DNA of 54,372 nt from Cypionkella sp. (GTDB lineage: Bacteria > Pseudomonadota > Alphaproteobacteria > Rhodobacterales > Rhodobacteraceae). The notes beneath the pieces are model-generated. The model did not search any database and had not been told where the DNA came from. It saw nothing but the letters and a program-made list of their open reading frames with translations. Shown here piece after piece: positions 11,343-52,937 of this stretch. The stretch covers positions 1 to 54,372 of the forward strand of contig JALOSF010000024.1 of the NCBI GenBank assembly GCA_025458525.1. The letters are read 5' to 3'. Each line of letters opens with the position of its first letter. The first letter of the stretch is position 1. Position numbers and translations under genes: made by a program.

Positions 11343-14300
11343 CTAGAGCCCGATGGGCCGTCGCAGGTCAAGCGTCAGCGGGAATTCCCGGTGCACCCGT
11401 TCCGCCATTGGCCGCACCCCGTGGCCCGGGCGGTGGCCCATCGGTTCGAAACGCGCCAGACGCCGCGCCTCGGCCTCGTTGCCGTTGACGGGGAAGGTGT
11501 CGTAATTGCGCCCGCCCGGATGGGCGACGTGATAGACGCAGCCCCCCAAGGGCCGCCCGGACCAGGTGTCGAAGATATCAAACGTCAGCGGCGCATCGAC
11601 CGGCAGCACCGGGTGCATCGCCGAGGACGGCTGCCACGCCTTGTAGCGCACGCCCGCCACCGCCTCGCCGCCGCCCACCGGGGTCAGCGGCGTGACGCGC
11701 CCGTTGCACAACACCTGATAGCGCGACGGGTCGGCGGCAGTCAGCTTCACCTGCAACCGCTCGGTCGAGCTGTCGGTATAGCGCACCGTGCCGCCAATCG
11801 CCCCGGTCTCCCCCAGCACATGCCACGGCTCCAGCGCCTGACGCAGTTCCAGATGCACGCCTTCGTAAGCAACCTCGCCGCAGAACGGGAACCGGAACTC
11901 GGCCTGCGCCTTGAACCAATCTTCGCGCAGCGGAAAGCCGTACTGCGCAAGGTCTGCCAGCACATCGCGGAAATCCTGCCAGACATGGTGCGGCAGCATA
12001 AAACGGTCATGCAGCGCCGTGCCCCAGCGGGTCAGCTCCCCCTGGGCCGGGCTGGCCCAGAAGCGGGCGATCATCGCGCGGATCAGCAGTTGCTGCGCAA
12101 GGCTCATGCGCGGGTCTGGCGGCATCTCGAAGCCGCGAAACTCCACCAGGCCCAGCCGCCCGGTCGGGCCATCGGGGGAATAGAGCTTGTCAATGCAGAT
12201 CTCGGCCCGGTGGGTGTTGCCCGTGACATCGGTCAGCATGTTGCGCAGCAAACGGTCCACCAACCACGGCATGGGGGCCGCGCCTTGGCCCGGATCGGGG
12301 ATCTGCGCCAGCGCGATCTCCATCTCATAGAGCGCGTCGTGGCGCGCCTCGTCGATGCGCGGGGCCTGCGAGGTTGGCCCGATGAACAGGCCCGAGAACA
12401 GGTAGGACAGCGACGGGTGCCGGTTCCAGTGCAGGATCAGACTGCGCAGCAGATCCGGCCGGCGCAGGAAGGGACTGTCGTTCGGGGTCGCCCCGCCGAC
12501 CACCACATGGTTGCCGCCGCCGGTGCCCGCATGTTTGCCGTCGATCATGAACTTGTCGGCGCCAAGGCGGCACAACCGCGCCTCCTCATAGACGGCGCTG
12601 GTGATGTCGACGCAATCCTGCCAGCTGTGGGCGGGGTGGACGTTCACCTCGATCACGCCGGGGTCGGGGGCGACGCGGATCACGTTCAGACGCGGGTCAT
12701 GCGGCGGGGCGTAACCTTCGATATGCACCTGCAACCCCAGCCGCTTGGCCGCCAGTTCCGCTGCCGTGACCAGATCGAGGTAATCCTCGACCGACACCAC
12801 CGGCGGCATGAACACGCACAGCCGCCCATCGCGCGCCTCGACCGACAGGGCGGTGCGGATCGAGCCGTCCAGCTCCACCTCACCCGACCCTTGTGCCACC
12901 TGCGCGCCCTGCGGCGTGCTGGCGGTGAAACTGGCCGAGGCTTGCGGCCGTGTCTCTGTCACCTCGGGGCTGTTCGGGATCGGCAGGGGCGGGCGTTCCA
13001 CCGTGGGATCGACCGGGTTGATATAGGGGTATTGCGACGGCGGCAGCCAGGGCAGGCTTTCCAGCGGCAGGCGATAGCCGACCGGGCTGTCGCCGGGCAC
13101 GAGGAACATATGCCCGCGCCGCAGCTTCCACCGCTCGGTCCGCCAGCGCCGACCCGTGGCGCGGCTTTGCCAGCTTTGCACCGGCAGCACAAAGCCCGAC
13201 GGGTTGGTCAGCCCGCGGTTGAACACGGTGGCAAGGCGGTGGCGCTCCTCGGGGTCTTTCAGCTTCGAATTGGCGGGGGTCACGTTTTCGGGCAGGTTCG
13301 CCTCTTTGACCAGCCATTGCGCCGGGTCTTCATAGGCGGGCAGGATGCAGTCGGTTTCCAGCGCCAGATTTGTCGCGATCTCGGTCAGCAGGCGCTGCGC
13401 GTCATCGTTTGTCACGCCGGTCTGCGCGCCTTCCTCGGCGATCAGCGCGGGGTCGGACCAGATCGGCTGGCCATCGGTGCGCCAATAGAGCGAGAACGTC
13501 CAGCGCGGCAGCGTCTCGCCCGGATACCACTTGCCCTGCCCGTAATGCAGAAAGCCCCCCGGCGCAAAGCGGTTGCGCAGACGGCGGATCAGCCGGTCGG
13601 CCAGCACGCGTTTGGTGGGGCCGACGGCGGTCGTGTTCCACTCATCGGCCTCGAAATCGTCGATCGACACGAATGTCGGCTCGCCCCCCATCGTCAGGCG
13701 AACGTCACCCGCGGCCAACGCCGCATCGACCTTGTGGCCAAGCGCGTTCAACTCCTCCCACGCAGCATCGCTGAAGGGTTTGGTGATGCGCGGATGCTCG
13801 GCGATGCGCGCGACCTTCATGTCAAAGGCGAAATCGACCTCGGCAAAGCTGGCCATGCCGGAAATCGGGGCGGCGTTGCGATAATGCGGGGTCGCGGCCA
13901 GCGGGATATGGCTTTCGCCGGCCAAAAGGCCAGATGTCGGATCGAGCCCGATCCAGCCCGCGCCGGGCAGATAGACCTCGCACCAGGCGTGCAGATCGGT
14001 GAAATCAACCTCGGTCCCAGAAGGGCCATCCAGCGCCTTGAGGTCGGGTTTAAGCTGGATCAGATAGCCCGACACAAACCGCGCCGCGAACCCCAAATGC
14101 CGCAGCGCCTGCACCAGAAGCCAGCTTGAATCGCGGCAGGACCCGCTTTGCACGCCCAGCGTTTCCTCGGGCGTCTGCACGCCGGGTTCCATCCGGATGG
14201 TATAGCGCAGGGTGTTGGCCACCCGCGTGTTCAGCGCGACCACGAAATCGACGCTGCCCATCGCCGCCTTCGGCACGCCATCCAGAAACGCCTGCAACAG

Positions 14301-14675
14301 CGGCCCCGCAGGTTCGGCGCGGCGATAGATCGCCAGATCGTCGGTCAAGTCGGCCGGATATTCGAAGGGCCAGTCCTTGGCCGATTCCTCGACAAAGAAA
14401 TCGAACGGATTATAGACCGTCATGTCGGCGACCAGATCGACCTCGATCTTCAACTCGCGCACGGGTTCGGGAAACACGAACCGCGCCAGCCAGTTGCCGA
14501 ACGGGTCTTGCTGATGGTTCACGAAATGCCCGCCGGGACTGACCTTGAGCGCGTGCGAGATCACCCGCGTGCGGCTGTGCGGGGCAGGGCGCAGGCGCAC
14601 CACCTGCGGCCCAAGCACCACGGGCCGGTCATATTTGTAATGGGTCAGGTGGTAGATCGCGGCCTTGATGGACAT
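11343..14675 (-). CDS. DUF2126 transglutaminase-family protein
   Basis: The 1110-residue protein begins with a transglutaminase-like core: catalytic C180 in [13 protein letters not shown], histidine in [12 protein letters not shown] and aspartate in IGLDPTSG. A long DUF2126 region of about 800 residues follows (seen: [37 protein letters not shown], and near the end [18 protein letters not shown]). The length matches the family. I placed the start at ATG 14675, in front of [16 protein letters not shown], because an upstream in-frame extension to 14816 is low-complexity intergenic DNA. It is first of three genes with an ATP-grasp/alpha-E ligase and a second transglutaminase. It is probably a peptidase, amidase or ligase partner; no specific reaction can be assigned. 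Confidence 0.88.
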
Positions 14676-14793
14676 GGGCACTTTCTCGTGAAGGTCTGGA
14701 CCTTGGTAACAGCAGCCGATGGTCGAGTATGGGTCAAGACCTCTATTGCATGCCATGGCGCGCGCCGCTGCCCAAAAGACGCCCAGCCCCCAA

Positions 14794-14834
14794 ATCTTTG
14801 CGCAAAAGATGGGCAATGCGCAAAGGATGGGGCT
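14794..14834. promoter_or_regulatory. Candidate LysR-type operator and imperfect tandem repeat
   Basis: The 289-bp gap 14676-14964 separates the divergent DUF2126 operon and the lysR gene. It contains ATCTTT-GCGCA-AAAGAT at 14794-14810, which includes a T-N11-A core typical of LysR-family sites. Overlapping it are two tandem 18-base copies beginning TGCGCAAA (14799-14816 and 14817-14834) that agree at 14 of their first 15 positions. The position between divergent promoters suggests a control site. Binding by the adjacent LysR protein is inference. I saw no convincing ORF in the gap. Confidence 0.4.
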
Positions 14835-14964
14835 GGGTTGCCTGTTTCTGTGCCATCAACGATCCGCGGTAATTCCCCGGATAGACCGCATCCCCGCCGC
14901 TATCTTGCCCGATTTCAGGATCAATACGGTCTGACAAACCCGTATCGTGTCTGCTGGGGGAAAA

Positions 14965-15870
14965 ATGGATCGTCTGACTGAAATGGAAGCCTTTGCCACG
15001 GTCGTTGACCAGGGCGGGTTTACCGATGCTGCCAAAAAGATGGGAATATCGAAATCGGCGGTGTCAAAGCATGTGTCCGCTCTTGAGGCCCGCCTTGGCG
15101 CCCGGCTTTTGAACCGCACGACACGCAGGGTCAGCCCGACCGAAATCGGGCTTGCCTATTATGACCGCGCGCGCCGTGTTCTGAATGACGCGGGCGAGGC
15201 GGATGCGCTTGTCACTTCGATGCAATCGGCGCCCTCGGGTTTGCTGCGGATCAGCGTTGCCACTGATTTCGGCGTGAACCTGCTGTCGCCCATTCTGGGG
15301 GATTTCCTGCTGGAATATCCCGACATCACCGTGAACATGGTGCTGAACAACCGCTATGTGGAATTGATCTCCGAAGGGTTCGACATGGCGATCCGGGTGG
15401 GCGAGTTGGAGGACAGTTCGCTGCGCGCTCGCAAGCTGACCGATACGACCAAGCGGATGATCGCGTCCCCCAGTTATTTTCAGCGCTATGGCCGTCCGAT
15501 GAAGATCGACGATCTGAACGACCACAAGCTGCTTCATTATTCCAACCAGGCCAATGGCAATGTGTGGAAGATCACCGCGCCATCGGGCGAAAAGCGGCAG
15601 GTGCGCACGGCAGGCTGGCTGACGGTCAATGACGGGCAATCGCTGCTGAACGCGGCGATTTCCGGGCTTGGCATCGCCTATCTGCCCAGCTTTCTGTATG
15701 CCGATGCGATGAAGGAAGGGCTGGTCGAGGAGGCTCTGCCCGGCCTGCCGACCGAGGTGCTTGGCATTTACGCGGTTTATCCCCCGGGGCGGTTCACCCA
15801 GCCCAAGGTGCGGGCCTTCATCGATTTTCTGGCGCGCCGCTATTCGGACAAGGGCCCCGACAAGTGGTGA
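14965..15870 (+). CDS. LysR-family transcriptional regulator
   Basis: The 301-residue protein has the LysR winged helix-turn-helix at residues 1-60 (MDRLTEMEAFATVVDQGGF, then KKMGISKSAVSKHVSALE and RLLNRTTRRVSPTEIG). A periplasmic-binding-protein-like effector domain follows (GLLRISVATDFGVNLLSPIL, WLTVNDGQSLLNAAISGLGI). The MEAF/TTRR pattern is that of the large subgroup that often controls a neighbouring gene. I chose ATG 14965, preceded by GGGGGAAAA, rather than GTG 14947. It is divergent from the DUF2126 operon and could control that operon or itself. The inducer is unknown. Confidence 0.9.
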   Translation: MDRLTEMEAFATVVDQGGFTDAAKKMGISKSAVSKHVSALEARLGARLLNRTTRRVSPTEIGLAYYDRARRVLNDAGEADALVTSMQSAPSGLLRISVATDFGVNLLSPILGDFLLEYPDITVNMVLNNRYVELISEGFDMAIRVGELEDSSLRARKLTDTTKRMIASPSYFQRYGRPMKIDDLNDHKLLHYSNQANGNVWKITAPSGEKRQVRTAGWLTVNDGQSLLNAAISGLGIAYLPSFLYADAMKEGLVEEALPGLPTEVLGIYAVYPPGRFTQPKVRAFIDFLARRYSDKGPDKW

Positions 15871-42500: not shown

Positions 42501-43385
42501 ATCTCGGGCCGCATCGCGCTGCCGCAGACCGAGATCCGCATCGCCGCCACCGGGCTTGGTGGACAGGAATTGATTGACGGGTTGCGCCATGTCGGTGAGC
42601 CCGCGCCCGTGCGGGAAACCCGCCGCCGTGCCGGTCTTCTGGATGACGGGACGGCGGGCGGCACAGGCGGGGGCAGCGCGCGCAGCCAGCCCTTTGAACT
42701 GAACGTTGAAATCTCGGCCCCAAATCAGCTGTTCATCCGGGGCCGCGGGCTGGATGCAGAGCTGGGCGGCACGCTGCTGGTAACGGGCACCACCGATGCC
42801 ATCGTTCCTTCTGGCGCGTTCAACCTGATCCGGGGGCGTCTGGATATTCTGGGCCGCCGCTTGACCCTGACCGAGGCCTCGCTTCAGCTTGAAGGCGATT
42901 TTGACGCAACTTTGCGGATTGTGGCCAGTTCGCAGAATGACGATGTCACCAGCGCGGTTGTCATCGAGGGGGCGGTCAGCGACCCGCAGGTCACGTTCAC
43001 ATCGACCCCGCAACTCCCGCAAGAGGAGGTCTTGGCACAGCTTCTGTTCGGGCGGCGTCTTGAATCGCTTTCGGCGCTACAGGCGCTGCAACTGGCCAGC
43101 GCAGTGGCCACCCTGGCCGGACGCGGGGGCGAGGGCATTGTCAGTCGCTTGCGCACCGGCTTTGGCCTCGATGATCTGGACGTTCAGACCAGTGCCTCGG
43201 GCGATACGCAGCTGACCGCCGGCAAGTATCTGAGCGAGAACATCTATTCCGAGGTGGTCGTGGATCAGTCCGGCAAAAGCCAGATCAACCTGAACTTGGA
43301 CATCACCGATAACCTGACGCTCAAGGGACGGGTTGGCGGTGATGGGGGGACGGGGCTTGGTTTGTTCTTTGAACGCGATTACTGA
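39534..43385 (+). CDS. tamB: Translocation and assembly module protein TamB
   Basis: The 1283-residue AsmA-like protein is anchored in the inner membrane by an uncleaved or cleaved N-terminal hydrophobic segment (HLFLATALIAAPLAAFA) and spans the periplasm as a beta-taco groove. The C-terminal DUF490 domain is clear (FELNVEISAPNQLFIRGRGL, PQVTFTSTPQLPQEEVLAQL, LFGRRLESLSALQALQLAS) and ends in GLGLFFERDY. Residues 534-833 contain three repeats of about 100 residues, each starting with a DL-(T/R)-V-x-x-x-EAD-x-x-L-x-G motif. It is coupled to tamA and overlaps the end of the convergent TetR gene by 7 bp. Confidence 0.93.
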   Translation: MRHLFLATALIAAPLAAFAQETEAERTDRGTIVAFLEDNLSTPGRQITLRGFAGALSSRATATQLTIADSEGVWLTLNDIVLDWSRSALLTGQITISELSAGEIIVARAPIPEPGVPSPEATGFALPELPVSIQISKVAAARVELGESLLGQTVEGSIEAALSLAGGEGSAELTMTRTDSGPEGQVTLAASYANESRQLAIDLTAVEGEGGIAATLLGLPGTPAVSLEVQGEGPIDDFTATLGLSSDGVERLAGTVTLMGADAGGTRFAAEVAGDLAPLFLPEYADFLGNSVALDVTGQRSALGRVDLSDLNLRTQSLSLQGQTTFAADGLPEAIALTGALRGPDGAPVLIPGFDAGVSIRAAQIDIAYNAATDTAWRALIAAEGVTTPDASLATVDLRGSGRISRTAAGNVVGGSFTASGTGIALADPSLAMALGDSATAAARLSWQEGTGLVRIGALDLAAGPLTLSAGGEVAGPSDGLRITGRLRIDAEDLAPLSGLADRPLSGRGTITASGTGSPLGGDFDVQARVDGQDLTVDIPEADNLLRGPSSLAVDIRRDTTGTVLRSFALRAADLAADGAGTVTSDRADLDLTLRMENLARLGSAYGGRIDGQVQLAGPLTEGRARIVADLNASDLRVGVAEADRLLRGASKVSLLADLDGAQLRVEQLSITAPVASVSASGLLAAEGSDVTARMSLADLSRLRPEFGGRVTADAAFRGTAQTAALTLSANAADLRLGVPEADRVLAGASQVTAALRLENGALRVDDLRLNNPQLSVQATGRIAGTRRDIDLSARLVNLGLILPEFPGPVTVSGTAVDTGAGYTVSLSGTGPGSINARVAGTVAQNLGSANLTVTGSAQAGLANPFLGSRVVSGPVTVDLRLNGPIALSSLSGRVGLSGGTLADPALPFSLQGIEASATLSNGSAQVATAAAVSTGGRLVLSGPVALTAPYRGDLGLTLSGVVLRDPQLYETLANGQLRITGPLTGGALISGRIALPQTEIRIAATGLGGQELIDGLRHVGEPAPVRETRRRAGLLDDGTAGGTGGGSARSQPFELNVEISAPNQLFIRGRGLDAELGGTLLVTGTTDAIVPSGAFNLIRGRLDILGRRLTLTEASLQLEGDFDATLRIVASSQNDDVTSAVVIEGAVSDPQVTFTSTPQLPQEEVLAQLLFGRRLESLSALQALQLASAVATLAGRGGEGIVSRLRTGFGLDDLDVQTSASGDTQLTAGKYLSENIYSEVVVDQSGKSQINLNLDITDNLTLKGRVGGDGGTGLGLFFERDY

Positions 43386-44029
43386 ACCCGCAACCCGTTC
43401 AACACCAAGGCCGTGATTTCGGCCACGATATGGGCTTCGTCCAACGGGTCGTCAGGGCCAAGGCCCGACATGAAGCGGGCCTCGCTGGCCATGACGGCAT
43501 AGGCTTCGGTCATGGCCCAGATATGAAACTGAAGCAGCAAAGGGTCCACCCGGCGGATCAGCCCCTGATCGGCCCAGGCGCCAATCAGGCGTGAGGCCCG
43601 CAGCGTCGCCTCACGCGATCCGGCCCAGACGGCGTGCAGCATCGGCGCGCCGCGCATCACCTCGCCGGTGAACATCCGCACCTCTGCGGGGTGGGTCAGC
43701 GAAAACCGCACCTTGCGGGCGATGTAATCCGACAGGAACGCCTCTGGCCCCTTGTCCAGTGCAATGCCTTCGAACAGATCGGCCCAGATTCCGGTGATAT
43801 GGGTCAGAGCCTCGGCGTAAAGCTCCTCCTTGCTGTCGATGTAATAGTGCAATTTGGTTTTCGAGATGCCCGCCCGGTCGGCAATGCCTTGGGTCGAGGC
43901 ACCGCGCAGGCCATGTTCGGCAAATTCCACGATGGCCGCCGCGCGAATATGGTCGCGCAACTCGCCCCGTTTGCGGGCAAGATCACCGCGCCCCACATGG
44001 CGCAGGCTCAGGGCTTCTGGGGCAGCCAT
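43379..44029 (-). CDS. TetR-family regulator, RutR-like
   Basis: The 216-residue protein has an N-terminal TetR helix-turn-helix (AAAIVEFAEHGLRGASTQG, IADRAGISKTKLHYYIDSKE) and a C-terminal domain with VRMFTGEVMRGAP, resembling the RutR-type ligand domain. RutR in other bacteria senses pyrimidines and controls pyrimidine and purine degradation. Here it is the last gene of the nine-gene catabolic operon; its start overlaps the ridA stop by 22 bp. The palindrome at 51122-51143 before the operon is the obvious candidate site. Confidence 0.85.
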   Translation of the reverse strand: MAAPEALSLRHVGRGDLARKRGELRDHIRAAAIVEFAEHGLRGASTQGIADRAGISKTKLHYYIDSKEELYAEALTHITGIWADLFEGIALDKGPEAFLSDYIARKVRFSLTHPAEVRMFTGEVMRGAPMLHAVWAGSREATLRASRLIGAWADQGLIRRVDPLLLQFHIWAMTEAYAVMASEARFMSGLGPDDPLDEAHIVAEITALVLNGLRVQ

Positions 44030-44460
44030 GCCGTCGCCTCCACTTCGATCAGGATATCGGGCGAAGGCATCATCGCGCTGACCTCTACCACCGTGGACAC
44101 GGGCGGGGTCCCGGGAAAGAACTGCCGCCGCACCGCGTTATAGCGGGGGAAGTCATTCAGATTCTTGAAATATTGCACCAACTTGAACACATCCGCCATC
44201 GACCCGCCGGCCTGTTCCACCGTGGCGCGGATACGGTCCAGCACATACCAGGACTGCGCGAGGATCGGCCCATCCTTGGCATCGACCGAGAATTCCCCGG
44301 TCTGACCAATCGTCGGGCCGATCCCGTCGGGCAGATCGCCAAACCCCCGGATCACCCGCCCAGCGGCCGCGTCCACCGCGATGACGCCGGACAGAAAGAT
44401 GAAATCGCCGCGCCGCACCCAGGCGGAATAGCGGGCAAGGGGGCGTGCTGCATCATTCAT
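44008..44460 (-). CDS. RidA/YjgF family protein
   Basis: The 150-residue protein shows the RidA pattern: SGVIAVDAAAGRVIRG, QSWYVLDRIRATVEQAGGSM, VFKLVQYFKNLNDFPRYN and the C-terminal STVVEVSAMMPSPDILIEVE. Family members deaminate reactive enamines or imines; RutC of the uracil pathway belongs here. An arginine of the usual deaminase site is not placed where I would expect in IEVEATAW, so imine deaminase activity is uncertain. It probably handles an unstable intermediate of the pathway encoded around it. Confidence 0.87.
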   Translation of the reverse strand: MNDAARPLARYSAWVRRGDFIFLSGVIAVDAAAGRVIRGFGDLPDGIGPTIGQTGEFSVDAKDGPILAQSWYVLDRIRATVEQAGGSMADVFKLVQYFKNLNDFPRYNAVRRQFFPGTPPVSTVVEVSAMMPSPDILIEVEATAWLPQKP

Positions 44461-44463
44461 CGC

Positions 44464-45063
44464 TTACACCGGAATGGTTTTCAGACTGCGCTCGACCTTG
44501 CCCAGAAAGGTCTTCCGCTCGTCCTCGGTCACGTGGTTCATGTTGTAAAGCTGCTTCCAGATCACCCGGCAGCGCGGGCTGAACAAGGGCCGCAGCCCGC
44601 GCGTCCACAACGACCGCCCCGGATCGCGGATCATCCTGATCCACCACCACGGACTGCCCGAGGTGGTGATCCCCACCATCAGCCGGATGTTCTGCAACTT
44701 TGGCTTGGTGCGTTTCTGTTTGCCGTCGGCCACCTCGAAGGTGATCCCCGGCAGCCAGACCCGCTCCAGCCAGCCTTTCAGCATGGCAGGGGGGCCGTAA
44801 TACCAGGTCGGATAGATCACCACCAAACCCTCGGCCCATTGCAGGTTCTCCACATGGTCCGGGTGCTTTGCGATGATTGCTGCGGTATCGGTCAGATATT
44901 GTCGACGTTCCTCGGTCGAAAGCACCGGGTTGAAGTTCTCGGCGTAAAGATCATGGCAGCGCAGTTCGTGGCCCGCCGCACGAAGCGTGCGACAGGCGGT
45001 CTCATAAAGCGCCGCGCCAAAACTTTCCGGGCACGGATGCGAGAAAACGACCAGAAGGCGCAT
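44464..45063 (-). CDS. NAD(P)H-dependent flavodoxin-fold oxidoreductase (NQO1-like)
   Basis: The 199-residue protein has the flavodoxin-like start RLLVVFSHPCPESFGAALYE and the FMN/FAD-contacting VVIYPTWYYGPPAMLKGWLERVW region typical of quinone-reductase-like enzymes. The second half (ITTSGSPWWWIRMIRD) matches the small MdaB/YwrO-type group. I used ATG 45063; the in-frame extension to 45147 overlaps the binding-protein gene. In this operon it may reduce a quinone or supply flavin electrons, but the substrate is unknown. Confidence 0.83.
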   Translation of the reverse strand: MRLLVVFSHPCPESFGAALYETACRTLRAAGHELRCHDLYAENFNPVLSTEERRQYLTDTAAIIAKHPDHVENLQWAEGLVVIYPTWYYGPPAMLKGWLERVWLPGITFEVADGKQKRTKPKLQNIRLMVGITTSGSPWWWIRMIRDPGRSLWTRGLRPLFSPRCRVIWKQLYNMNHVTEDERKTFLGKVERSLKTIPV

Positions 45064-45076
45064 GGCGCATAACCCC

Positions 45077-46069
45077 TTACTTTGGCAGCAAATCCATGCC
45101 GACCTTCTTGTTGACGAACTGGTCGGTTGCGACCTTGGCAATGTCAACCGACCCTGCCTCGAGAATGCCGGCGTTCACCGCCAGATCGTAGAACGCCTGC
45201 ACGCGCGCCATGTCGATCGCGCCGATCCCGACCTCGGCCTGATAGCCGGTGCCGATGATGCCAAGCGCCTTCATCTGCTCGACCTCCTGGTTCAGCTTTT
45301 CGACCGTCTGTTCCGGGTTGTCGGCAATGATCGCCGCATTGCCAGCCGAATTGTCGTTATACAGGTAGTTATACCAGCCGATGGTCGATGCATCGACAAA
45401 GCGCTGCACCAGATCGGGGTTGTTTTCCACCATCTCCACCCGCGCCTCGATCGTGGTGGAATAGGTGTTCCAGCCATTGTCGGCAAGCAGGAACCATTCC
45501 GGGTCCGCGCCTTCGGCTTTGGCATAGATCGGTTCTGCGGTGCCATAGCCCTGCTGCACCATTTTCTTGTCGGTCAGGTATTCGGCAAGGTTGAAACCAT
45601 AGGGTTTCAGCTGTTCATCCTTGAACCCCTTGGCCTTGACCATCCACTGCCAATAGCTGAACTGCCCATCCTTCGACACAAGGATCGTCGGCGCGTTCAC
45701 CAGATCGTCGAAGGACGCATATTCCCCCTTGTGGGTCAGCATCACCTGCGGGTCCTTCTCGAAATAGGAGGCCACCACCACCGTCGGAATGCCGTTGCGC
45801 ACGTTGTCCATCGACAAGAGCAGGTTGCCCGCCATCAGGAAATCCACCTTGCCGGCCGGCAGCATCGGGCGGTTGTTGACCTGCGGCCCGCCTTGCTGAA
45901 TCTCCACCTCCAGCCCGTATTTGGCATAGGTGCCATCGGCCATCGCCTGATAGAACCCGCCATGCCCGCCTTGCGCCAACCAGTTGGTGGCGAACACCAC
46001 CTTGTCTTGTGCCATGGCGCCACTGGCGACCACGGTTGCCGCCACTGCGGCCAGAAGAATTGCCTTCAT
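45077..46069 (-). CDS. ABC transporter substrate-binding protein, NMT1/THI5-like
   Basis: The 330-residue precursor has a signal peptide (KAILLAAVAATVVASGAMA). The mature part follows the NMT1/THI5-like fold: VVFATNWLAQGGHGGFYQAM, GTYAKYGLEVEIQQGG, PAGKVDFLMAGNLLLSM and a VDASTIGWYNYLY segment. This group binds HMP-type pyrimidines, riboflavin-like or other N-heterocycles, and alkanesulfonates. Separation from the permease gene by two enzyme genes, on the same strand, suggests one operon with a single transported compound. Confidence 0.88.
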   Translation of the reverse strand: MKAILLAAVAATVVASGAMAQDKVVFATNWLAQGGHGGFYQAMADGTYAKYGLEVEIQQGGPQVNNRPMLPAGKVDFLMAGNLLLSMDNVRNGIPTVVVASYFEKDPQVMLTHKGEYASFDDLVNAPTILVSKDGQFSYWQWMVKAKGFKDEQLKPYGFNLAEYLTDKKMVQQGYGTAEPIYAKAEGADPEWFLLADNGWNTYSTTIEARVEMVENNPDLVQRFVDASTIGWYNYLYNDNSAGNAAIIADNPEQTVEKLNQEVEQMKALGIIGTGYQAEVGIGAIDMARVQAFYDLAVNAGILEAGSVDIAKVATDQFVNKKVGMDLLPK

Positions 46070-46096
46070 GTCAAACCCTTTCCCTGTTGTGCCAAA

Positions 46097-47464
46097 TCAC
46101 GCCTTGGCCATATCCGGCGTCCAGCCCCGGGTTTTTCCCGGATTCATCAAACCATGCGGATCGGCCTCGCGTTTGAAGTCGATCTGCGTGGTGTCGATTT
46201 CCTTCATCCCGCCATCCTCGATGGTGATGACATGCGGGTCAAAGATCGTGCAGCCATCCAGCTGCTCCATCTCGGCGATGATTTCATACATCCGCGCGCG
46301 GGTGGTCCAACGCACGAGCGGCAGGGCGAAAATCTGCACCTCGCCGCCCAGCCGCGCCATTTCGTGATGCATCAAAACCTCGTCGCCGTAACGCGCCATC
46401 TGGCGCATCACCAGCGCGGGGTCGAACGGGCTGGGATAGGCGGTTTGCAGATAGGTCCAGACCCCCGGCTCATGCTTCAGCGCCTGCAAGGTCGTGTGGT
46501 TCCAGCCACATTCCCAGGCGGCGGGCAGGTTCTGCGCCTCAAGCTCGTGCAGCGTCCCGGTCAGGGACACCCGCCCCCCCATCGCCGCCACGCGGGCGTG
46601 AAAATCCGCCATCGCCTCGGGCGCGATCATTGAAAACACCGCGTCCTTGTCGGCGGGAAAATGCGCGGCCAACCGCTTGTAGAAGGGGGCGATCCGCCCC
46701 TCGACCACCGTCATCAGATAGGCGTCCACCCCCTCGGCCTGCGCCTGTGCCGCAAAGCGCAGCGCGGTGTCGTAGCCATCGAACAGCGCAATCGTGTGGA
46801 CCCAGTCGGTTGCGGGCACGAGCGCGTAATCCATCGCCGTGATGATCCCGTTGGTGCCATAGGCATGCTGCACCTTCATGATGTCGGCCCCGTGCAATTC
46901 GATGATGCGCGGCGTCTCCTCTACCGTCACCAGCCGCAGCCAGGTGATGTTCTCGCCATCGCGCAGCATCCCGTGGCGCAAGGACCCGATGCCCCCCGAC
47001 CCGCCCGAGACAAAGCCGCCCATCGTGGCAAAGCGCTTGGTTGACGGGAACATCGACAGCATCTGGCCGCTCTCGCCGACGGCCGTCTCTACCCGTTCCA
47101 TCCGCGCGCCCGCCTCGCAGACCACCCGGCCCGGCGCGATGCTGATGATCCGGTCCAGCTTGGTCATCTCCAGGATGATCCCGCCCTCCATCGGCACGCA
47201 TTGGCCGTAGTTCCCGGTGCCGCCGCCGCGCACGGTGACGGGCAGGCGGTGGCGCGCGGCGGCGGCTGCCACCACGATCACCTCGGCCTCGGTCCTCGGG
47301 GTCACCACCAGTTGGGCGGCGCGATTGTCCAGCAATTCCTTAAGGATAGGGGAATACCAGAAGTAATCCTTGGATTTCGCCTCCACCAGCTTTGTGTCCG
47401 CCGAATGGGGAATATCCCCGATCTCGGCGCAAAAGGCGGCAAGGGTCTCAGCGCTCACGCTCAT
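46097..47464 (-). CDS. FAD-binding (VAO/PCMH-type) oxidoreductase
   Basis: The 455-residue protein carries an FAD-binding PCMH domain: VVTPRTEAEVIVVAAAAARH, LPVTVRGGGTGNYGQCVPM (the pyrophosphate loop), MLSMFPSTKRFATMGGFVSG and SGGIGSLRHGMLRD. The C terminus ends with READPHGLMNPGKTRGW, as in glycolate oxidase and related D-2-hydroxy-acid or heterocycle oxidases. No cysteine for bicovalent flavin is evident. ATG 47464 overlaps the stop of the amidohydrolase gene (ATGA). It likely oxidises an intermediate produced by that amidohydrolase; this is inference. Confidence 0.85.
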   Translation of the reverse strand: MSVSAETLAAFCAEIGDIPHSADTKLVEAKSKDYFWYSPILKELLDNRAAQLVVTPRTEAEVIVVAAAAARHRLPVTVRGGGTGNYGQCVPMEGGIILEMTKLDRIISIAPGRVVCEAGARMERVETAVGESGQMLSMFPSTKRFATMGGFVSGGSGGIGSLRHGMLRDGENITWLRLVTVEETPRIIELHGADIMKVQHAYGTNGIITAMDYALVPATDWVHTIALFDGYDTALRFAAQAQAEGVDAYLMTVVEGRIAPFYKRLAAHFPADKDAVFSMIAPEAMADFHARVAAMGGRVSLTGTLHELEAQNLPAAWECGWNHTTLQALKHEPGVWTYLQTAYPSPFDPALVMRQMARYGDEVLMHHEMARLGGEVQIFALPLVRWTTRARMYEIIAEMEQLDGCTIFDPHVITIEDGGMKEIDTTQIDFKREADPHGLMNPGKTRGWTPDMAKA

Positions 47465-48615
47465 GCAGCATATCCTTGGCTTTGGGCCATCCCGGCCCGG
47501 TAAATCCGGCGCGGCGCACGCGGGTCGGCCAACGCCTCCCGCCAATCGGCCCCGCCGATGGTCATGAAATCCGCCGGTCGCCCCACAGCGAGCGGCGCGG
47601 GCGCAGCCCCAAGCACGCGAGCGGCGTCCGTCGTGATCGCCCCCAGCCAGTCGCCCGGGTCAAGGTGCAGCGTCAGGCTTGCCAGCCGCAGCATCTCCAG
47701 CGGGTCATGGGTGCCGTAAGGGTAGAACGGGTCACGCACATTGTCGGACGCGAACAGCACCGTCACGCCCGCCGCGCGCAATTCCTGCGCCGGGGCCAGA
47801 CCGCGCAACCGGGGGCTGCGCCCCGGCGCCATATCCTGCAAATGCAGGTTGGTGGTCGGCAAAATGGTCAGCGCGAGCCCCGCCTCGGCCATCATGGCAA
47901 TGGCCCGGCCCGCATCCTCCCGGATCGACAGCGCACAGGCGTGCCCGCACAACACGCGGCCCGCCATGCCGTGCTGCCGGGTCAGCTGGGCAATCTCATC
48001 CACCCCCACCGCATCGGCATCCAGCCCCTCATCCACATGGAAATCGAGGGTCAACCCATGCTCCGCCGCCAACCGGAACACCCGGCCCAGATGGTCGGCA
48101 TAGTTGGCATGGCGATAGATGAAACTGCCCAGAACCCCACCATCCGCCGCCACCTTTGTGGCAATCCGCGGCCCGTGATCCGCGTCGCCCAGCACCTCCA
48201 GCGACACCAGCGCCGCCCGTTGCAGATGCACCCCTTCTGCCGCGACCTCGCCCATCACGCTCCACGCCAGCGGCACGGCAGGCTCGGTCCAGTCCACATG
48301 GCTGCGCACCAAGGCCGCCCCATGCGCTGCCGCATCCTGCAACCCTCGCGTGATGCGGGCGCGCAGATCGACCTCGGTCCAGGCCGCCTTGTCCGCCGCC
48401 ATCGCTTCGATCGCGCCAAACAGCCCCGGCTTTTCCGCCCGCGTCCGATGCGCGGTAAAGCATTTGTCCAGATGCACATGCGCATCCACCACGAGCGGGA
48501 TTGCAACCGACCGCGCCGGCCCGACGGCGGGCGTCATCGCCGCGATCCGCCCCCCGGCCAGCGTGATCTGCACCACCCGTCCGTCGACCAGAACATGGGT
48601 CAGATCATTGCTCAC
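47461..48615 (-). CDS. Cytosine-deaminase-like amidohydrolase
   Basis: The 384-residue enzyme belongs to the amidohydrolase superfamily near cytosine/isoguanine deaminases and N-isopropylammelide-type enzymes. The metal site is visible: HxH in VDAHVHLDKCF, a histidine-glutamate region in LDFHVDEGLDADAVG, GRVLCGHACAL and the aspartate of VLFASDNVRDPF. These are all intact, so catalysis is expected: deamination or ring opening of a pyrimidine, purine, triazine, hydantoin or creatinine-like substrate. Bacterial creatinine deaminases are from the same family. The start overlaps the permease gene by 11 bp. Confidence 0.86.
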   Translation of the reverse strand: MSNDLTHVLVDGRVVQITLAGGRIAAMTPAVGPARSVAIPLVVDAHVHLDKCFTAHRTRAEKPGLFGAIEAMAADKAAWTEVDLRARITRGLQDAAAHGAALVRSHVDWTEPAVPLAWSVMGEVAAEGVHLQRAALVSLEVLGDADHGPRIATKVAADGGVLGSFIYRHANYADHLGRVFRLAAEHGLTLDFHVDEGLDADAVGVDEIAQLTRQHGMAGRVLCGHACALSIREDAGRAIAMMAEAGLALTILPTTNLHLQDMAPGRSPRLRGLAPAQELRAAGVTVLFASDNVRDPFYPYGTHDPLEMLRLASLTLHLDPGDWLGAITTDAARVLGAAPAPLAVGRPADFMTIGGADWREALADPRAPRRIYRAGMAQSQGYAA

Positions 48616-49459
48616 GGCGGATCTCGCTTTCGTGCCAATGCCCCAGCACCCGCCGCGACAGCCAAGCGGTCGCCAGAAAGATCACCACCCCCAGCACCGA
48701 CACCAGAACCAGTGCCGCGAACATCCGCGGAATCTCATTCCTGAACGAGGATTCGATAATGCGGCTGGCAAGCCCCGTATTCTGCCCCGCGGCGCCTGCC
48801 ACAAACTCCGCCACCACGGCGCCAATCAGGCTCAGCCCGCCGGCAACCTTTAGCGCCGCCATGAAAGAGGGCAAAGCCGAGGGGGCCAGCAGGAACCGCA
48901 ACCGCTGCCATGGCGTTGCGCGATACAGGGTGAACAGGTCGCGCAGATTGTGGTCCGCACTGCGCAACCCGATCACCGTGCCGGACAGGATCGGGAAAAA
49001 CGCCACGATCCACGCGCAGATCAGCAGGGCCGCAAAGGTGCTGTCGACATAGATCAGGATCAAGGGCGCAATCGCCACGACCGGCGTCACCTGCAAGATC
49101 ACCGCGAAGGGAAACAGGCTCATCTCCACCGCCCGCGACAGCGCAAAGAGGGCGCCAAGCAGCACCCCGCCAAGGATCGCAAGGCCCAGCGAAAACACCG
49201 TCAGCTTTACCGTGAACCACGCCGACCCCATCAGCGACGGGCCATCGGTCCACAGCGTCTGCGCGATCCGGCTTGGCGCGGGAATAAGGTAATGCGGGAT
49301 CTCATAGGCCCGCACCGCCCATTCCCAGCCGCCAATCGCCGCCACCAGAGTGACCACCGGCAGCAGCCATGTCAGCACTTTTTCTCGCCGCTCGCGCGCA
49401 ATCGCCGCCGCGTTGACCGGCGCCTCAGGCCCCGCGTCAATGGTCGATATGCTCTGCAT
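48605..49459 (-). CDS. ABC transporter permease (SsuC/TauC/ThiX type)
   Basis: The 284-residue inner-membrane protein has about six membrane segments. Its cytoplasmic EAA-type loop is DLFTLYRATPWQRLRFLLAPSAL, the expected ATPase contact. VTPVVAIAPLILIY and VVAEFVAGAAGQNTGLASRI match the sulfonate/taurine/HMP permease family. It overlaps the ATPase gene by 23 bp and the amidohydrolase gene by 11 bp, so the three are tightly packed. Confidence 0.9.
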   Translation of the reverse strand: MQSISTIDAGPEAPVNAAAIARERREKVLTWLLPVVTLVAAIGGWEWAVRAYEIPHYLIPAPSRIAQTLWTDGPSLMGSAWFTVKLTVFSLGLAILGGVLLGALFALSRAVEMSLFPFAVILQVTPVVAIAPLILIYVDSTFAALLICAWIVAFFPILSGTVIGLRSADHNLRDLFTLYRATPWQRLRFLLAPSALPSFMAALKVAGGLSLIGAVVAEFVAGAAGQNTGLASRIIESSFRNEIPRMFAALVLVSVLGVVIFLATAWLSRRVLGHWHESEIRREQ

Positions 49460-50213
49460 CCAGCGTCCCCTTCAATGTCTCGGACACCCGCCGCGCCTCG
49501 GCGGAAAACTCTTGCGACACGCGCCAATCCTCGGCCCTTGGCCAAGGCACATCGATGGTCAGATCGGCCGCCACCCGCCCAGGCCGCGCCGCCATCACCA
49601 CCACGCGGCTGGACAGGAACACGCTCTCGAACACCGAATGCGTGACAAAGATCACCGTCAGCCCCTGCTCTGCCGCCAGCCGCACCACATCATTGTTCAG
49701 CTTGGCCCGGGTCATCTCGTCCAGGGCCGCAAAGGGTTCATCCATCAGCAGAATCCGCGGCCGCGTGACCATGGCGCGCGCAATCGACACCCGCATCTTC
49801 ATGCCGCCAGACAGCTCTCGCGGATAGGCTTGCGCGAATTTCGTCAGCCCCACATCCCGCAGCGCCTGCGCGATCCGCGGTGCGGCCGCCTCACGCCCGA
49901 CGCCCGCCAGACGCAAGGGCAGGAACACATTGTCCTCTACCGTGGCCCAGGGCATCAGCGTCGGCTCCTGAAATACGAACCCAAGGTCATGCTCGGTCTG
50001 GCCCGTCGCAGGGGCGATGGTGATCGTGCCCGATGTCACCGGCAAAAGCCCGGCGATCATCTTGAGCGCGGTTGATTTCCCGCAGCCCGAGGGGCCAAGG
50101 AAACTGATGAAATCGCCCTCGTTGATCGTCAGCGTCATGTCCGACACCGCCAGCGTGTCATTGCCGAACCGCTTCGACACCCGCGCCAGCCGGATGATCG
50201 GATCGCCCTTCAT
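49437..50213 (-). CDS. ABC transporter ATP-binding protein (SsuB/TauB/ThiZ type)
   Basis: The 258-residue ATPase has Walker A GPSGCGKST, Q-loop VFQEPTLMPW, signature LSGGMKMRVSIARAM, Walker B ILLMDEPFAALDE and H-loop FVTHSVFESV. It is the cytoplasmic motor for the permease and NMT1-like binding protein of the operon. The start overlaps the creatininase gene by 4 bp. Confidence 0.92.
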   Translation of the reverse strand: MKGDPIIRLARVSKRFGNDTLAVSDMTLTINEGDFISFLGPSGCGKSTALKMIAGLLPVTSGTITIAPATGQTEHDLGFVFQEPTLMPWATVEDNVFLPLRLAGVGREAAAPRIAQALRDVGLTKFAQAYPRELSGGMKMRVSIARAMVTRPRILLMDEPFAALDEMTRAKLNNDVVRLAAEQGLTVIFVTHSVFESVFLSSRVVVMAARPGRVAADLTIDVPWPRAEDWRVSQEFSAEARRVSETLKGTLDAEHIDH

Positions 50214-51025
50214 GCAAAGGCCTCCGGGTTGGCCTTTGTGTCCAGAAAGGACAGCGGCATGCGGTGCACCTCGCGCAGCAGCGTCACGATCTGCGTGGCC
50301 GCATGGTCAATCGCGCGCTGCCCCTTGTCAGCGGTGGCCAGCGTGGCATTGCCCGCCGCCCCCGCCGCGTTGATATCCTGCATCATCCAGGCCAAACGCC
50401 CCGCCGGGGTCAGGCCCAACAGCCGGTTTTCAGCCGCCAGCCGCGCGTTCTGCGGCACGAAATCGCGGGCCTGGTCCATCTGCACCAGATCGGGGCGCAG
50501 CGCCAGCATCACGCTGGTTTCCAGATCACCGGCATGAATGCCATGGCGATCCTCCTCTGGCGAAATCAGCCCCTCGGGCAGGCCCATCGCGAACCAGTTG
50601 GCCGACACGACCAGCATCTTGTGCTTGATCCGCAGATCCCGCGCCACGATGTCCATCGGCGCGATCTGCCCGCCGTGACTGTTGAGGATCACCAGCTTGC
50701 GCACCCCCGCCGCCGCCACGCAATCGCCGATCTCGCCCCACATCGCCATCAGTGTGGCCGCTGAAAACGTCAATGTGCCGGGCCAATGCGAATGCTCATT
50801 CGATTTGCCGACCGGCATCGTGGGCAGGAACAGCACCGGCAAATCCGCAGGCAGGCGTGGGATCACCGCCGCGACCATCCCGTCCACAATGGCTTGGTCA
50901 ACGGACAGGGGCAGGTGCGGGCCGTGCTGCTCGACCGCGCCAACTGGCAACACCGCGATCACCTTGTCGCGGGGCAGCGCGGCAAAATCTCGAGCCGTGT
51001 AGTCAGCCCAGAACCGGTGCTTCAT
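50210..51025 (-). CDS. Creatininase-family amidohydrolase
   Basis: The 271-residue enzyme shows the creatininase fold: VLPVGAVEQHGPHLPLSVD (metal-binding glutamate and histidine), HSHWPGTLTFSAATL, ILNSHGGQ and EDRHGIHAGDLETSVML (the second metal cluster). The family hydrolyses small ring amides: creatinine, F420 precursor FAPy, sterically strained lactams. With a cytosine-deaminase-like enzyme and a heterocycle-type transporter in the same operon, a cyclic amide substrate is likely, but which one is unknown. It is the first gene after the candidate operator. Confidence 0.87.
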   Translation of the reverse strand: MKHRFWADYTARDFAALPRDKVIAVLPVGAVEQHGPHLPLSVDQAIVDGMVAAVIPRLPADLPVLFLPTMPVGKSNEHSHWPGTLTFSAATLMAMWGEIGDCVAAAGVRKLVILNSHGGQIAPMDIVARDLRIKHKMLVVSANWFAMGLPEGLISPEEDRHGIHAGDLETSVMLALRPDLVQMDQARDFVPQNARLAAENRLLGLTPAGRLAWMMQDINAAGAAGNATLATADKGQRAIDHAATQIVTLLREVHRMPLSFLDTKANPEAFA

Positions 51026-51121
51026 GCTGCGCCTCGCCCGGTCTTGCGTTCCTGTCGCACCATGGACTCACCCCCGGTCATTGTCCCGTCTGTGACAAGT
51101 TGACGCGAGGATAATCCATTC

Positions 51122-51143
51122 TGTCAAACCATTTGGTCTGACA
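51122..51143 (-). promoter_or_regulatory. 22-bp near-perfect palindrome, candidate RutR-type operator
   Basis: TGTCAAACCA (51122-51131), TT, TGGTCTGACA (51134-51143) match as inverted halves at 9 of 10 positions, with the core ACCA-TT-TGGT. RutR of E. coli recognises a palindrome with core TTGACCA-N2-TGGTCAA, so the resemblance is specific. The site is about 97 bp before the creatininase start, in the 201-bp gap after the LOG gene. The gap also holds GCCCAAG-g-CTTGGGC (51195-51209), perhaps the end of the LOG transcript. The distal TetR gene is the likely ligand-responsive binder. Confidence 0.65.
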
Positions 51144-51226
51144 TCCGCAGATTGTTTTTTGTGCACGCCGGCGCAGCGGGTTTTGCGCCGCCGCGCCCAA
51201 GGCTTGGGCAGCGCGCAAAGGGCCGG

Positions 51227-52033
51227 TCAGCGCCAGCCGTCGATTGCGGCCAAAGCCTCCTCGGCGGTTTCGACATAGCGAAACAGATCAAGGTCTTCGC
51301 GGCTGATCGTTCCTGCCTCGGCAAGGGCCTCCCAGTTGATGATCTTCTCCCAGAAACTCTGGCCGAACAAAAGAAAGGGGATCACTTTCATGCGCTTGGT
51401 CTGGATCAGCGTCAGGGCCTCGAACATCTCGTCCAGGGTGCCAAACCCACCGGGGAAGACGCAGATCGCCTTGGCCCGCATCAGGAAATGCATCTTGCGG
51501 ATGGCGAAATAGTGAAAGTTGAAGCACAGGTCCGGCGTCACATAGGGGTTGGGCGCCTGTTCATGCGGCAGGACGATATTCAACCCGATCGATTGCCCAC
51601 CCGCCTCTTGTGCGCCAAGGTTTCCGGCCTCCATCACCCCGGGCCCGCCGCCGGTGATGATCACATTCTCGCGGCCATAGCTTTCCAGACTGCGTTGCGT
51701 CATCATCCGGGCAAAGCGTCGTGCTTCGTCGTAATAGGCTGACAAGGCTGACAGGGCAGGGGTGCGCCCGTCCTCGGGCCGGGCCGGAATGCGCGCCCCG
51801 CCGAACAGAACGATGGTCGATTCTATACCGCGTTCATCCATCACCAGTTGTGGCTTGAGCAACTCCAGTTGCAGCCGCACGGGCCGCAGATCCTCGCGCG
51901 TCATGAAATCGGGGTCGGCAAAGGCCAGCCGATAGGCGGGCGCGCGGGTTTGGGGCGTATCCGGCGCCTTGTGGGCGGCCTTTACGTCTTCGACGCTGTC
52001 GCGGAACGGATGGGCGCGGGGTTCGTCTTTCAT
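51227..52033 (-). CDS. LOG-family Rossmann-fold protein (TIGR00730-like)
   Basis: The 268-residue protein has the lysine-decarboxylase-like fold of LOG proteins: IVLFGGARIPAR, VIITGGGPGVMEAGN and the catalytic PGGFGTLDE motif with the nearby RKMHFLM segment. LOG proteins hydrolyse nucleoside 5'-monophosphates (cytokinin-type or AMP) to base and ribose 5-phosphate. This longer group has an extra N-terminal arm. I used ATG 52033; ATG 52048 is an in-frame alternative. It is divergent from dapD. Confidence 0.88.
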   Translation of the reverse strand: MKDEPRAHPFRDSVEDVKAAHKAPDTPQTRAPAYRLAFADPDFMTREDLRPVRLQLELLKPQLVMDERGIESTIVLFGGARIPARPEDGRTPALSALSAYYDEARRFARMMTQRSLESYGRENVIITGGGPGVMEAGNLGAQEAGGQSIGLNIVLPHEQAPNPYVTPDLCFNFHYFAIRKMHFLMRAKAICVFPGGFGTLDEMFEALTLIQTKRMKVIPFLLFGQSFWEKIINWEALAEAGTISREDLDLFRYVETAEEALAAIDGWR

Positions 52034-52112
52034 AAGCTGCCTTTGCATTGCGTGACCTGTGCCCAAGCCTTATAGGCAGGGCGCAACAGGACCAACCAAA
52101 AAGGGTGACACC

Positions 52113-52937
52113 ATGTCGAACGCCGCCTTGGAAACAGCCATCGAAGCCGCGTGGGACACCCGCGACAGTATCAGCCCCGCCACCAAGGGCGAGGTCCGTG
52201 ATGCGATCGAGGCCACTCTGGCCGCGCTGGACAGCGGCGCCTTGCGCGTGGCCGAAAAGCGCGGGGCCGATTGGCATGTGAACCAATGGGCCAAGAAGGC
52301 CGTGCTGCTGTCTTTCCGCCTGACCGACATGTATGAGATTTCGGGGTCCAACGGCGGCGCAAACTGGTGGGACAAGGTGCCATCGAAATGGCAGGGCTGG
52401 ACCGAAGCCGATTGGCGCGCCGCCGGCTTTCGCGCGGTGCCCGGCTCTATCGTCCGCCGGTCGGCCTATATCGGCAAGGGCGTCGTGCTGATGCCGTCCT
52501 TTGTGAACCTTGGCGCCTATGTCGATGAGGGCACGATGGTCGATGGCTGGGCCACGGTCGGTTCCTGCGCCCAGATCGGCAAGAACGTCCACCTGTCGGG
52601 CGGGGTTGGCATCGGCGGCGTGCTGGAGCCGATGCAGGCAGGCCCGACCATCATCGAGGACAACTGCTTCATCGGTGCGCGGTCTGAAGTCGTCGAAGGC
52701 TGCATCATCCGTGAAGGTTCGGTGCTGGGCATGGGCGTGTTCATCGGCAAATCGACCAAGATCGTCGATCGCGAAATCGGCGAAGTGATGTATGGCGAGG
52801 TGCCGGCAGGATCGGTCGTGGTGGCGGGCTCCATGCCCTCCAAGGGCGGAGTGAACCTTTACTGCGCGGTGATCGTGAAAAAGGTTGACGCGCAGACGCG
52901 GTCCAAAACCTCGATCAACGAGCTTTTGCGCGACTGA
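52113..52937 (+). CDS. dapD: Tetrahydrodipicolinate N-succinyltransferase
   Basis: The 274-residue cytosolic enzyme transfers a succinyl group in lysine and meso-diaminopimelate synthesis. The C-terminal left-handed beta-helix is apparent from hexapeptide repeats ([54 protein letters not shown]), and the N-terminal helical domain ends with [15 protein letters not shown]. Length is normal. The ATG at 52113 replaces an in-frame extension to 52059 that would overlap the divergent promoter. Confidence 0.96.

Follow-up and report, generated by a model that had tools for sequence, protein, structure and literature searches.

A nine-gene operon of Cypionkella sp. predicted to import a pterin and to begin taking its ring apart

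Pterins are made and released very widely, yet the genes that degrade their ring are largely undescribed in the literature searched. The closest described enzymes come from folate breakdown. According to You et al. 2022 (PMC9513972), a 399-residue pterin deaminase (EC 3.5.4.11) cloned from Variovorax sp. F1 deaminates folate and pteroate, shares 37.0% identity with Arad3529, the sole other proven case of its type, and is encoded just upstream of a gene annotated as "endoribonuclease." The PDB entry 6v42 is titled as a flavin oxygenase involved in folate catabolism. The current study concerns a nine-gene operon in a draft genome of Cypionkella sp. (GCA_025458525.1; 3.43 Mb, 197 contigs, 87% complete). 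The window, i.e., the whole stretch of DNA analyzed, is contig JALOSF010000024.1 (54,372 nucleotides; contig C16 of our set).

Judged from its sequence, this operon very probably imports a pterin derived from folate, neopterin, or biopterin and begins to dismantle the ring. A pteridine is the most likely substrate because the relatives of two of its enzymes, a deaminase of the Variovorax F1 lineage and a flavoenzyme related to 6v42, are tied to folate and pterin breakdown and because the genes are linked. Deamination and flavin oxygenase action are anchored by relatives with experiment or structure; the order and roles of the other steps are what we infer. A preliminary description of this DNA had proposed that a nitrogen heterocycle is taken up and broken down in steps. 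That outline is supported, but the rings it named (pyrimidine, purine, hydantoin, or creatinine-like compound) did not include the pteridine to which the deaminase and flavoenzyme relatives point. The components come from known enzyme families, and for two of these a connection with the breakdown of folate or pterins is already on record; the whole module is apparently undescribed: the literature search, the gene combination included, found no paper describing the whole set.

Operon layout and the two anchoring enzymes

Open reading frame (ORF) coordinates and a Pfam profile search place all nine genes on the minus strand, reading leftward from 51025 to 43379. From the 5' gene, the order is creatininase family, ATP-binding cassette (ABC) ATPase, permease, Amidohydro_3, flavin adenine dinucleotide (FAD)-dependent FAD_binding_4 enzyme, NMT1/THI5-like binding protein, Flavodoxin_2, Rid, and TetR. 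The junctions consist of overlaps of 4, 23, 11, 4, and 22 bp and gaps of 3, 13, and 27 bp, which bears out the tightly packed one-strand operon of the preliminary description in both span and order. Three start codons were corrected, to GTG 48615 for the amidohydrolase, ATG 47464 for the FAD gene, and ATG 45063 for the NQO-like gene. The features are as follows.

50210..51025, minus strand: creatininase-family metallohydrolase, first gene (PF02633, 249 bits)
49437..50213, minus strand: ABC transporter ATPase (PF00005)
48605..49459, minus strand: ABC transporter permease (PF00528)
47461..48615, minus strand: pterin-deaminase-type amidohydrolase, Amidohydro_3 (46% identity to the Variovorax orthologue; tree; active site)
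46097..47464, minus strand: FAD_binding_4 flavoenzyme, relative of 6v42 (phmmer 1e-117; Foldseek rank 1; 44% by blastp)
45077..46069, minus strand: NMT1/THI5-like periplasmic binding protein (PF09084)
44464..45063, minus strand: NAD(P)H oxidoreductase, Flavodoxin_2/NQO type (PF02525)
44008..44460, minus strand: Rid-family protein (Ribonuc_L-PSP) with Ser122 replacing the RidA arginine (PF01042; alignments)
43379..44029, minus strand: TetR-type regulator with a RutR-like C-terminal domain, TetR_C_3 (PF08362)
51122..51143, no strand: near-palindrome TGTCAGACCAAATGGTTTGACA, likely TetR operator (predicted; 22 bp, upstream of the first gene)

The deaminase was tied to the proven F1 enzyme via the primers of the F1 gene. 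At the start codon of the cluster amidohydrolase, the 5' primer shows 2 mismatches in 21 positions in loci L067 and L071, 3 in L075, 4 in L070, L073, L074, and L080, and 6 in L066. In these eight Variovorax genes the site lies 396 or 398 codons before the gene end, and it is the best match over the whole locus in six of the eight, the best match of L074 lying elsewhere. The downstream primer appears in section 19 of PMC9513972 with its letters reversed; turned around, it matches the beginning of the Rid gene. The fit, directly behind the deaminase, holds with 0 to 2 mismatches in all eight Variovorax loci, and no such fit was found in the two non-Variovorax loci tried (L076 and L077). With one primer fitting the deaminase start and the other the adjoining Rid gene, the orthologue of the proven F1 gene belongs to this cluster. 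Between the window deaminase and the Variovorax orthologue (L071) the identity is 46%, which, set against the 37.0% between the F1 enzyme and Arad3529, counts for its assignment as a pterin deaminase.

A tree of 45 amidohydrolases agrees with this placement. A long branch with 100/100 support parts 37 rows from Escherichia coli CodA and seven CodA-like proteins; 35 of the 37 are cluster linked or orthologous, including the window protein and five Variovorax orthologues, and two stem from genomes without the FAD gene. The F1 lineage is represented in this tree by the orthologues identified by primers, not by the F1 protein or Arad3529 themselves. All six metal and catalytic residues (H61, H63, H214, E217, H246, and D313 in CodA numbering) are retained in the window deaminase; over 79 aligned rows, each of the histidines is kept in 78, D313 in 79, and E217 in 76. 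Elsewhere in the pocket the CodA residues are replaced: D314 by Asn (79 rows), W319 by Phe (78), F154 by Leu (73), and Q156 by Pro (41), the window protein having S, N, and F at Q156, D314, and W319, three positions that we take to determine the specificity of CodA. The best NCBIfam match, the cytosine deaminase model NF005759, scores 306 bits, below its cut-off of 403; the Variovorax orthologue also falls short (335 bits), and a Rhizobium member passes (691 bits). A true cytosine deaminase was rejected on the missed cut-off and the replaced specificity residues, and the earlier cytosine-deaminase-like label gives way to a placement alongside the pterin deaminase of proven activity and away from E. 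coli CodA. The window amidohydrolase belongs, by sequence, to the pterin deaminase lineage, and removal of the 2-amino group from pterins is its predicted activity.

The second anchor, independent of the first, is the flavoenzyme. An AlphaFold2 model (predicted local distance difference test, 88) retrieved 6v42 at Foldseek rank 1 with a template modeling score of 0.92 and 43% identity, and by sequence the two match over full length (phmmer 1e-117; 44% identity by blastp). The other 49 Foldseek matches listed reach at most 21% identity, so that the relation to 6v42 stands clear of other FAD_binding_4 enzymes. The window enzyme, by sequence and model, belongs to the family of this folate catabolism flavin oxygenase, and oxygenation of a folate-derived ring is predicted. 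Among the sequences compared, the closest relatives of 6v42 itself are Hoeflea proteins (loci L102 and L098; 86% identity). Genes for a creatininase, binding protein, ATPase, permease, amidohydrolase, FAD enzyme, and NQO protein are present in these two loci. Among the relatives compared, the proteins nearest to the window flavoenzyme are those of the Rhodobacterales loci L034-L041 (67-75% identity).

Conservation and linkage of the cluster

The locus set was assembled with the FAD protein as the only query in named genomes and consists of the best 80 of at least 587 relatives by FAD identity, from 38 named genera. Linkage was counted in the 57 loci whose flanks reach 8 kb or more in each direction, 23 short-flank loci being dropped. 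The amidohydrolase is present in 53 of these complete neighborhoods, the creatininase in 52, both in 49, and both together with all three ABC genes in 45; TetR occurs in 28 and an NQO-type gene in 32. Such recurrence speaks for a conserved gene set and against a chance arrangement. In 50 of the 57, at least one electron transfer gene (NQO, PDR/VanB, ferredoxin reductase, or ferredoxin) can be found 8 kb or less from the FAD gene; of the remainder, six show none of the six redox genes looked for, and one has a Rieske gene alone.

The linkage was also approached from the deaminase side: 150 genomes of the family to which Variovorax belongs were searched with the Variovorax deaminase, and FAD genes were counted at E of ≤1e-40. 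A deaminase match was found in 48 of the 150. For all 12 of the closest orthologues (at least 55% identity), an FAD gene lies on the same contig no more than 4.5 kb away; in one of these 12 genomes (G371) it is split over two frames. At 13 of 15 places with 38-44% deaminase identity, an FAD gene is likewise present, within 4.7 kb. No FAD match at this threshold was detected in the 27 genomes with only CodA-like matches (≤35%). Because the linkage is seen from both sides, the deaminase and the flavoenzyme are tied together; the idea that homologues might be dispersed in other genomes, raised in the preliminary description as a test, was put to these data, and the genes travel together.

Sampling of the class turned up FAD relatives in 14 of 289 genomes, the source genome included (E of ≤1e-30), and such relatives were also found in 141 of 72,556 plasmid records (E of ≤1e-40), 63 of the 141 being predicted conjugative. 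Several architectures occur. Clusters of the TetR type include some that also carry ferredoxin and ferredoxin reductase genes; Rhizobium has a LysR type, and Pantoea and Klebsiella have a PDR/VanB type. A further type combines a 2-oxoglutarate (2OG)-Fe(II) oxygenase with two NQO genes. Candidates for an importer, a regulator, a deaminase, an oxygenase, and a ring opener come together in the operon, and relatives of it occur in Alpha-, Beta-, and Gammaproteobacteria and are carried by many plasmids.

Some loci deviate in other ways. The Tabrizicola/Rhodobacter relatives L037, L038, and L040 keep creatininase, deaminase, and FAD genes together, and no ABC genes were found there; three recurrent neighboring ORFs match no Pfam family and may be in the wrong frame. 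Two adjacent FAD_binding_4 paralogues are present in the clusters of L086, L096, L106, L107, L108, and L112, which suggests two oxidation steps or two substrates. On Rhizobium etli plasmid pC (L027:15771-19021), the cluster is bordered on one side by genes for isochorismatase-type hydrolases and for an allophanate hydrolase and on the opposite side by a urea amidolyase gene; these enzymes could finish off ureide products. In the window, the operon is flanked by LOG-type, dapD-like, and TamB-like genes (named by eye from their translations), which are seemingly unrelated to it.

Proposed route, remaining members, and regulation

On the proposed route, the NMT1-type ABC system would import a pterin, whose 2-amino group would be removed by the deaminase to give a lumazine. 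The flavoenzyme, with electrons from the NQO-like reductase, would add oxygen to the pyrazine half of the ring, and the creatininase-family enzyme would hydrolyze the newly formed cyclic amide to a 5-acylamino-6-aminouracil. The Rid protein may deal with the unstable amino intermediate, and TetR would be released from its operator upon binding the pterin or its product. The NQO-like reductase is a possible electron donor, and the role of the Rid protein is the least certain among the operon members. Among solved structures, the closest match to the binding protein covers a short stretch only.

The creatininase-family protein conserves E32, H34, D43, H117, H164, and E169 in 82 rows. It falls short of the creatininase model (TIGR04448, 89.7 bits versus a cut-off of 235) and likewise of the models for MftE and IolN. 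In an alignment with 1q3k, Gly119 of the window protein stands at creatininase E122, presumably a metal ligand. A true creatininase, the literal reading of the family name given in the preliminary description, was rejected on this residue and on the score. The family also includes ArfB, which acts on a 5-formylamino-6-aminopyrimidine.

Ser122 of the Rid protein, which is at least 97% conserved in 26 rows, aligns with the arginine of PH0854 and of 2-aminomuconate deaminase. In PMC4433059, RidA Arg105 is described as essential for imine hydrolysis, with Ser at this position in about 10% of RidA proteins. The earlier attribution to RidA action on reactive imines fell with this residue, and membership among the RidA imine hydrolases was not assigned. 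The closest solved relative is 3lyb (1e-58). Two Rid types were distinguished among the neighborhoods: a query of the window type finds 23 of the 57, and the second type forms its own group of 32 loci, partly caught by that query.

The nearest solved relative of the regulator, previously described as RutR-like, is RutR (5e-27), and the regulator's C-terminal domain is RutR-like; it misses the RutR cut-off (TIGR03613, 127 bits versus 368), so that the likeness stands and the identity does not. Operator candidates were sought in 38 loci with TetR and creatininase, the window included, from 300 bp upstream to 150 bp inside the creatininase ORF. A TTGACCRATYGGTCAA-like site (at least 13 of 16 positions) is present in 20 of the 38, compared with 0.22 expected from shuffles, an upper view since the consensus was derived from the very loci counted, many of which are close kin. 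The window near-palindrome is a diverged version (11 of 16 positions, a 9-of-10 palindrome), and the stretch at 51122-51143 is predicted as the likely operator of the operon's TetR.

Riboswitch-linked relatives, alternative substrates, and known systems

Related clusters contain a second type of deaminase. The order in L081 is fad-rid-creatininase-binding protein-ATPase-permease-amidohydrolase-fad-Rieske-nqo, and its amidohydrolase (13656-15089), not of the window type, passes NF009059 (670 bits; cut-off 543) with 2paj as the nearest structure (1e-160). L165 holds a 2paj-like amidohydrolase (13760-15169) beside an FAD gene, ABC genes, a 2OG-Fe oxygenase, a Rieske oxygenase, and a xanthine riboswitch, and in Klebsiella an NF009059-type amidohydrolase (822 bits) lies beside the cluster. 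We take 2paj to be an isoxanthopterin deaminase, an enzyme reportedly described by Hall et al. in 2010. Activity on isoxanthopterin and pterin-6-carboxylate is reported in PMC5270733. A CodA-like deaminase was not found in the FAD/ABC operons of L081 and L165; it looks as if one pterin deaminase may have been replaced there by another kind.

The xanthine riboswitch RF03054 binds xanthine and urate and switches genes off, as shown in PMC7373994. It was detected in two of the seven loci scanned first and, over 49 genomes or records, 26 times in 16. In three of these 16 (G300, G301, and W04) it lies within 10 kb of an FAD-family gene; in the other 13 it is not at these clusters. In 10 of 15 fetched riboswitch regions there is a Rieske gene whose family is also represented near some FAD clusters. 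At L029:1333-1386 and L069:1160-1229, xanthine riboswitches stand beside the clusters and precede either a set of transporter, deaminase, and 2OG oxygenase genes or a Rieske oxygenase gene. The riboswitch link is a lead and no proof, because the riboswitches of 13 of the 16 genomes are off cluster and none was found in the window genome. A joint reading can be offered tentatively, although we would not bet on it: the operon may be a self-regulated module for dismantling the pteridine ring with the creatininase-family enzyme as the missing ring opener, and the riboswitch genes a sister branch of the same pterin pathway ending in xanthine. If so, the xanthine riboswitch would exert end product control over the Rieske, 2OG-Fe, isoxanthopterin-type deaminase, and NMT1 transporter genes. 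McNutt and Damle reportedly found in 1964 that tetraoxypteridine is converted to xanthine-8-carboxylate, which a xanthine ending of the sister branch would fit. The operon also corrects the cytosine deaminase label and renders the function of the xanthine riboswitch genes testable.

Several observations weigh against a pterin substrate or parts of the proposed route. In eight of the 57 complete neighborhoods (L034, L046, L062, L065, L076, L083, L094, and L096), the deaminase or the creatininase is missing. For 6v42, the link to folate catabolism comes from a PDB title, and the literature search found no paper on the structure; the identification of 2paj as an isoxanthopterin deaminase is provisional. 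The anchors are only 46% and 43-44% identical, so the exact pterin could differ, or the substrate could be another amino heterocycle. Variovorax F1 accumulated deaminopteroate, and its extracts degraded minimal amounts of it (PMC9513972), so that the later steps of the pathway are unproven even in that strain. The imine step is weak because the Rid arginine is missing. No creatininase hit was obtained in L165, the best NF009059 match of the source genome stays below the cut-off (410 versus 543 bits; G000:C22:7597-8922, L185), and no RF03054 riboswitch was found in that 87% complete assembly. In the flanks, no pterin-making or folate-cleaving family was seen among the 25 of 51 families viewed, apart from one folate-binding GCV_T (63 proteins chosen from 133 representatives listed out of 390 groups).

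An oxidized purine, e.g., 8-oxoguanine, isoguanine, or urate-related ureides, would be an improbable substrate. It would suit the three genomes with a xanthine/urate riboswitch near the FAD-family gene, the ureide-related genes beside the R. etli cluster, and the relatedness and partial promiscuity of enzymes for guanine and pterin derivatives (PMC5270733). However, the proven deaminase relative acts on folate and pteroate, the flavoenzyme relative is titled for folate catabolism, no xanthine riboswitch was found in the source genome, and the FAD copies nearest the riboswitches mostly form a distant branch (about 38% identical). The purine was set aside once the deaminase had been traced to a pterin deaminase.

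The pyrimidine, hydantoin, or creatinine-like compound named in the preliminary description is very improbable. Family names speak for it, namely creatininase, cytosine deaminase (NF005759), and a RutR-like TetR, but the window proteins fall short of the cut-offs for cytosine deaminase, creatininase, RutR, and RutC alike, the CodA specificity residues and creatininase E122 are replaced, and RutA was not found. That the RutA/RutB core of uracil degradation is lacking had been noted correctly: the best RutA match in the 87% complete assembly scores 47.5 bits against a cut-off of 498, and no RutB-type gene is among the nine. Catabolism of the thiamin pyrimidine hydroxymethylpyrimidine (HMP) via a ThiXYZ-like importer is hardly credible and gained no support from the searches: the NMT1/THI5-like protein, the amino-pyrimidine deaminase-like enzyme, and a flavoenzyme that could oxidize an alcohol would suit it, but PMC7373994 judges the NMT1/THI5-like genes beside xanthine riboswitches distinct from those of thiamin metabolism, and no Rfam element, hence no thiamin pyrophosphate riboswitch, was found in 43000-52500.

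The predicted pterin import and breakdown operon can be set beside four known systems. With the Rut uracil pathway it shares a RutR-like regulator and a Rid protein, but membership was rejected on the absence of a RutA match above the cut-off and the missed RutR and RutC cut-offs, and a RutB-type gene is not among the nine. The xanthine riboswitch-linked genes (NMT1 transporter, Rieske and 2OG-Fe oxygenases, and NF009059 amidohydrolase; PMC7373994) have parts in common with the window and are joined with the FAD family in L029/L170, L069, and L165, and without a riboswitch in L081; in contrast, no such riboswitch was found in the window genome, and the window operon has no Rieske or 2OG-Fe oxygenase. 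The flavin oxygenase 6v42/6v43 differs by an identity of 43-44% to the window enzyme and by the absence of a TetR hit from the clusters of its closest relatives, but it matches in full-length sequence and fold, and those relatives have the same core neighbors as the window. In Variovorax, the deaminase and Rid genes lie on the opposite strand, whereas the window deaminase, 46% identical, sits inside the ABC-FAD operon; both belong to the same Amidohydro_3 lineage with the same metal ligands, and the Variovorax orthologue is located in an orthologous cluster with Rid behind it.

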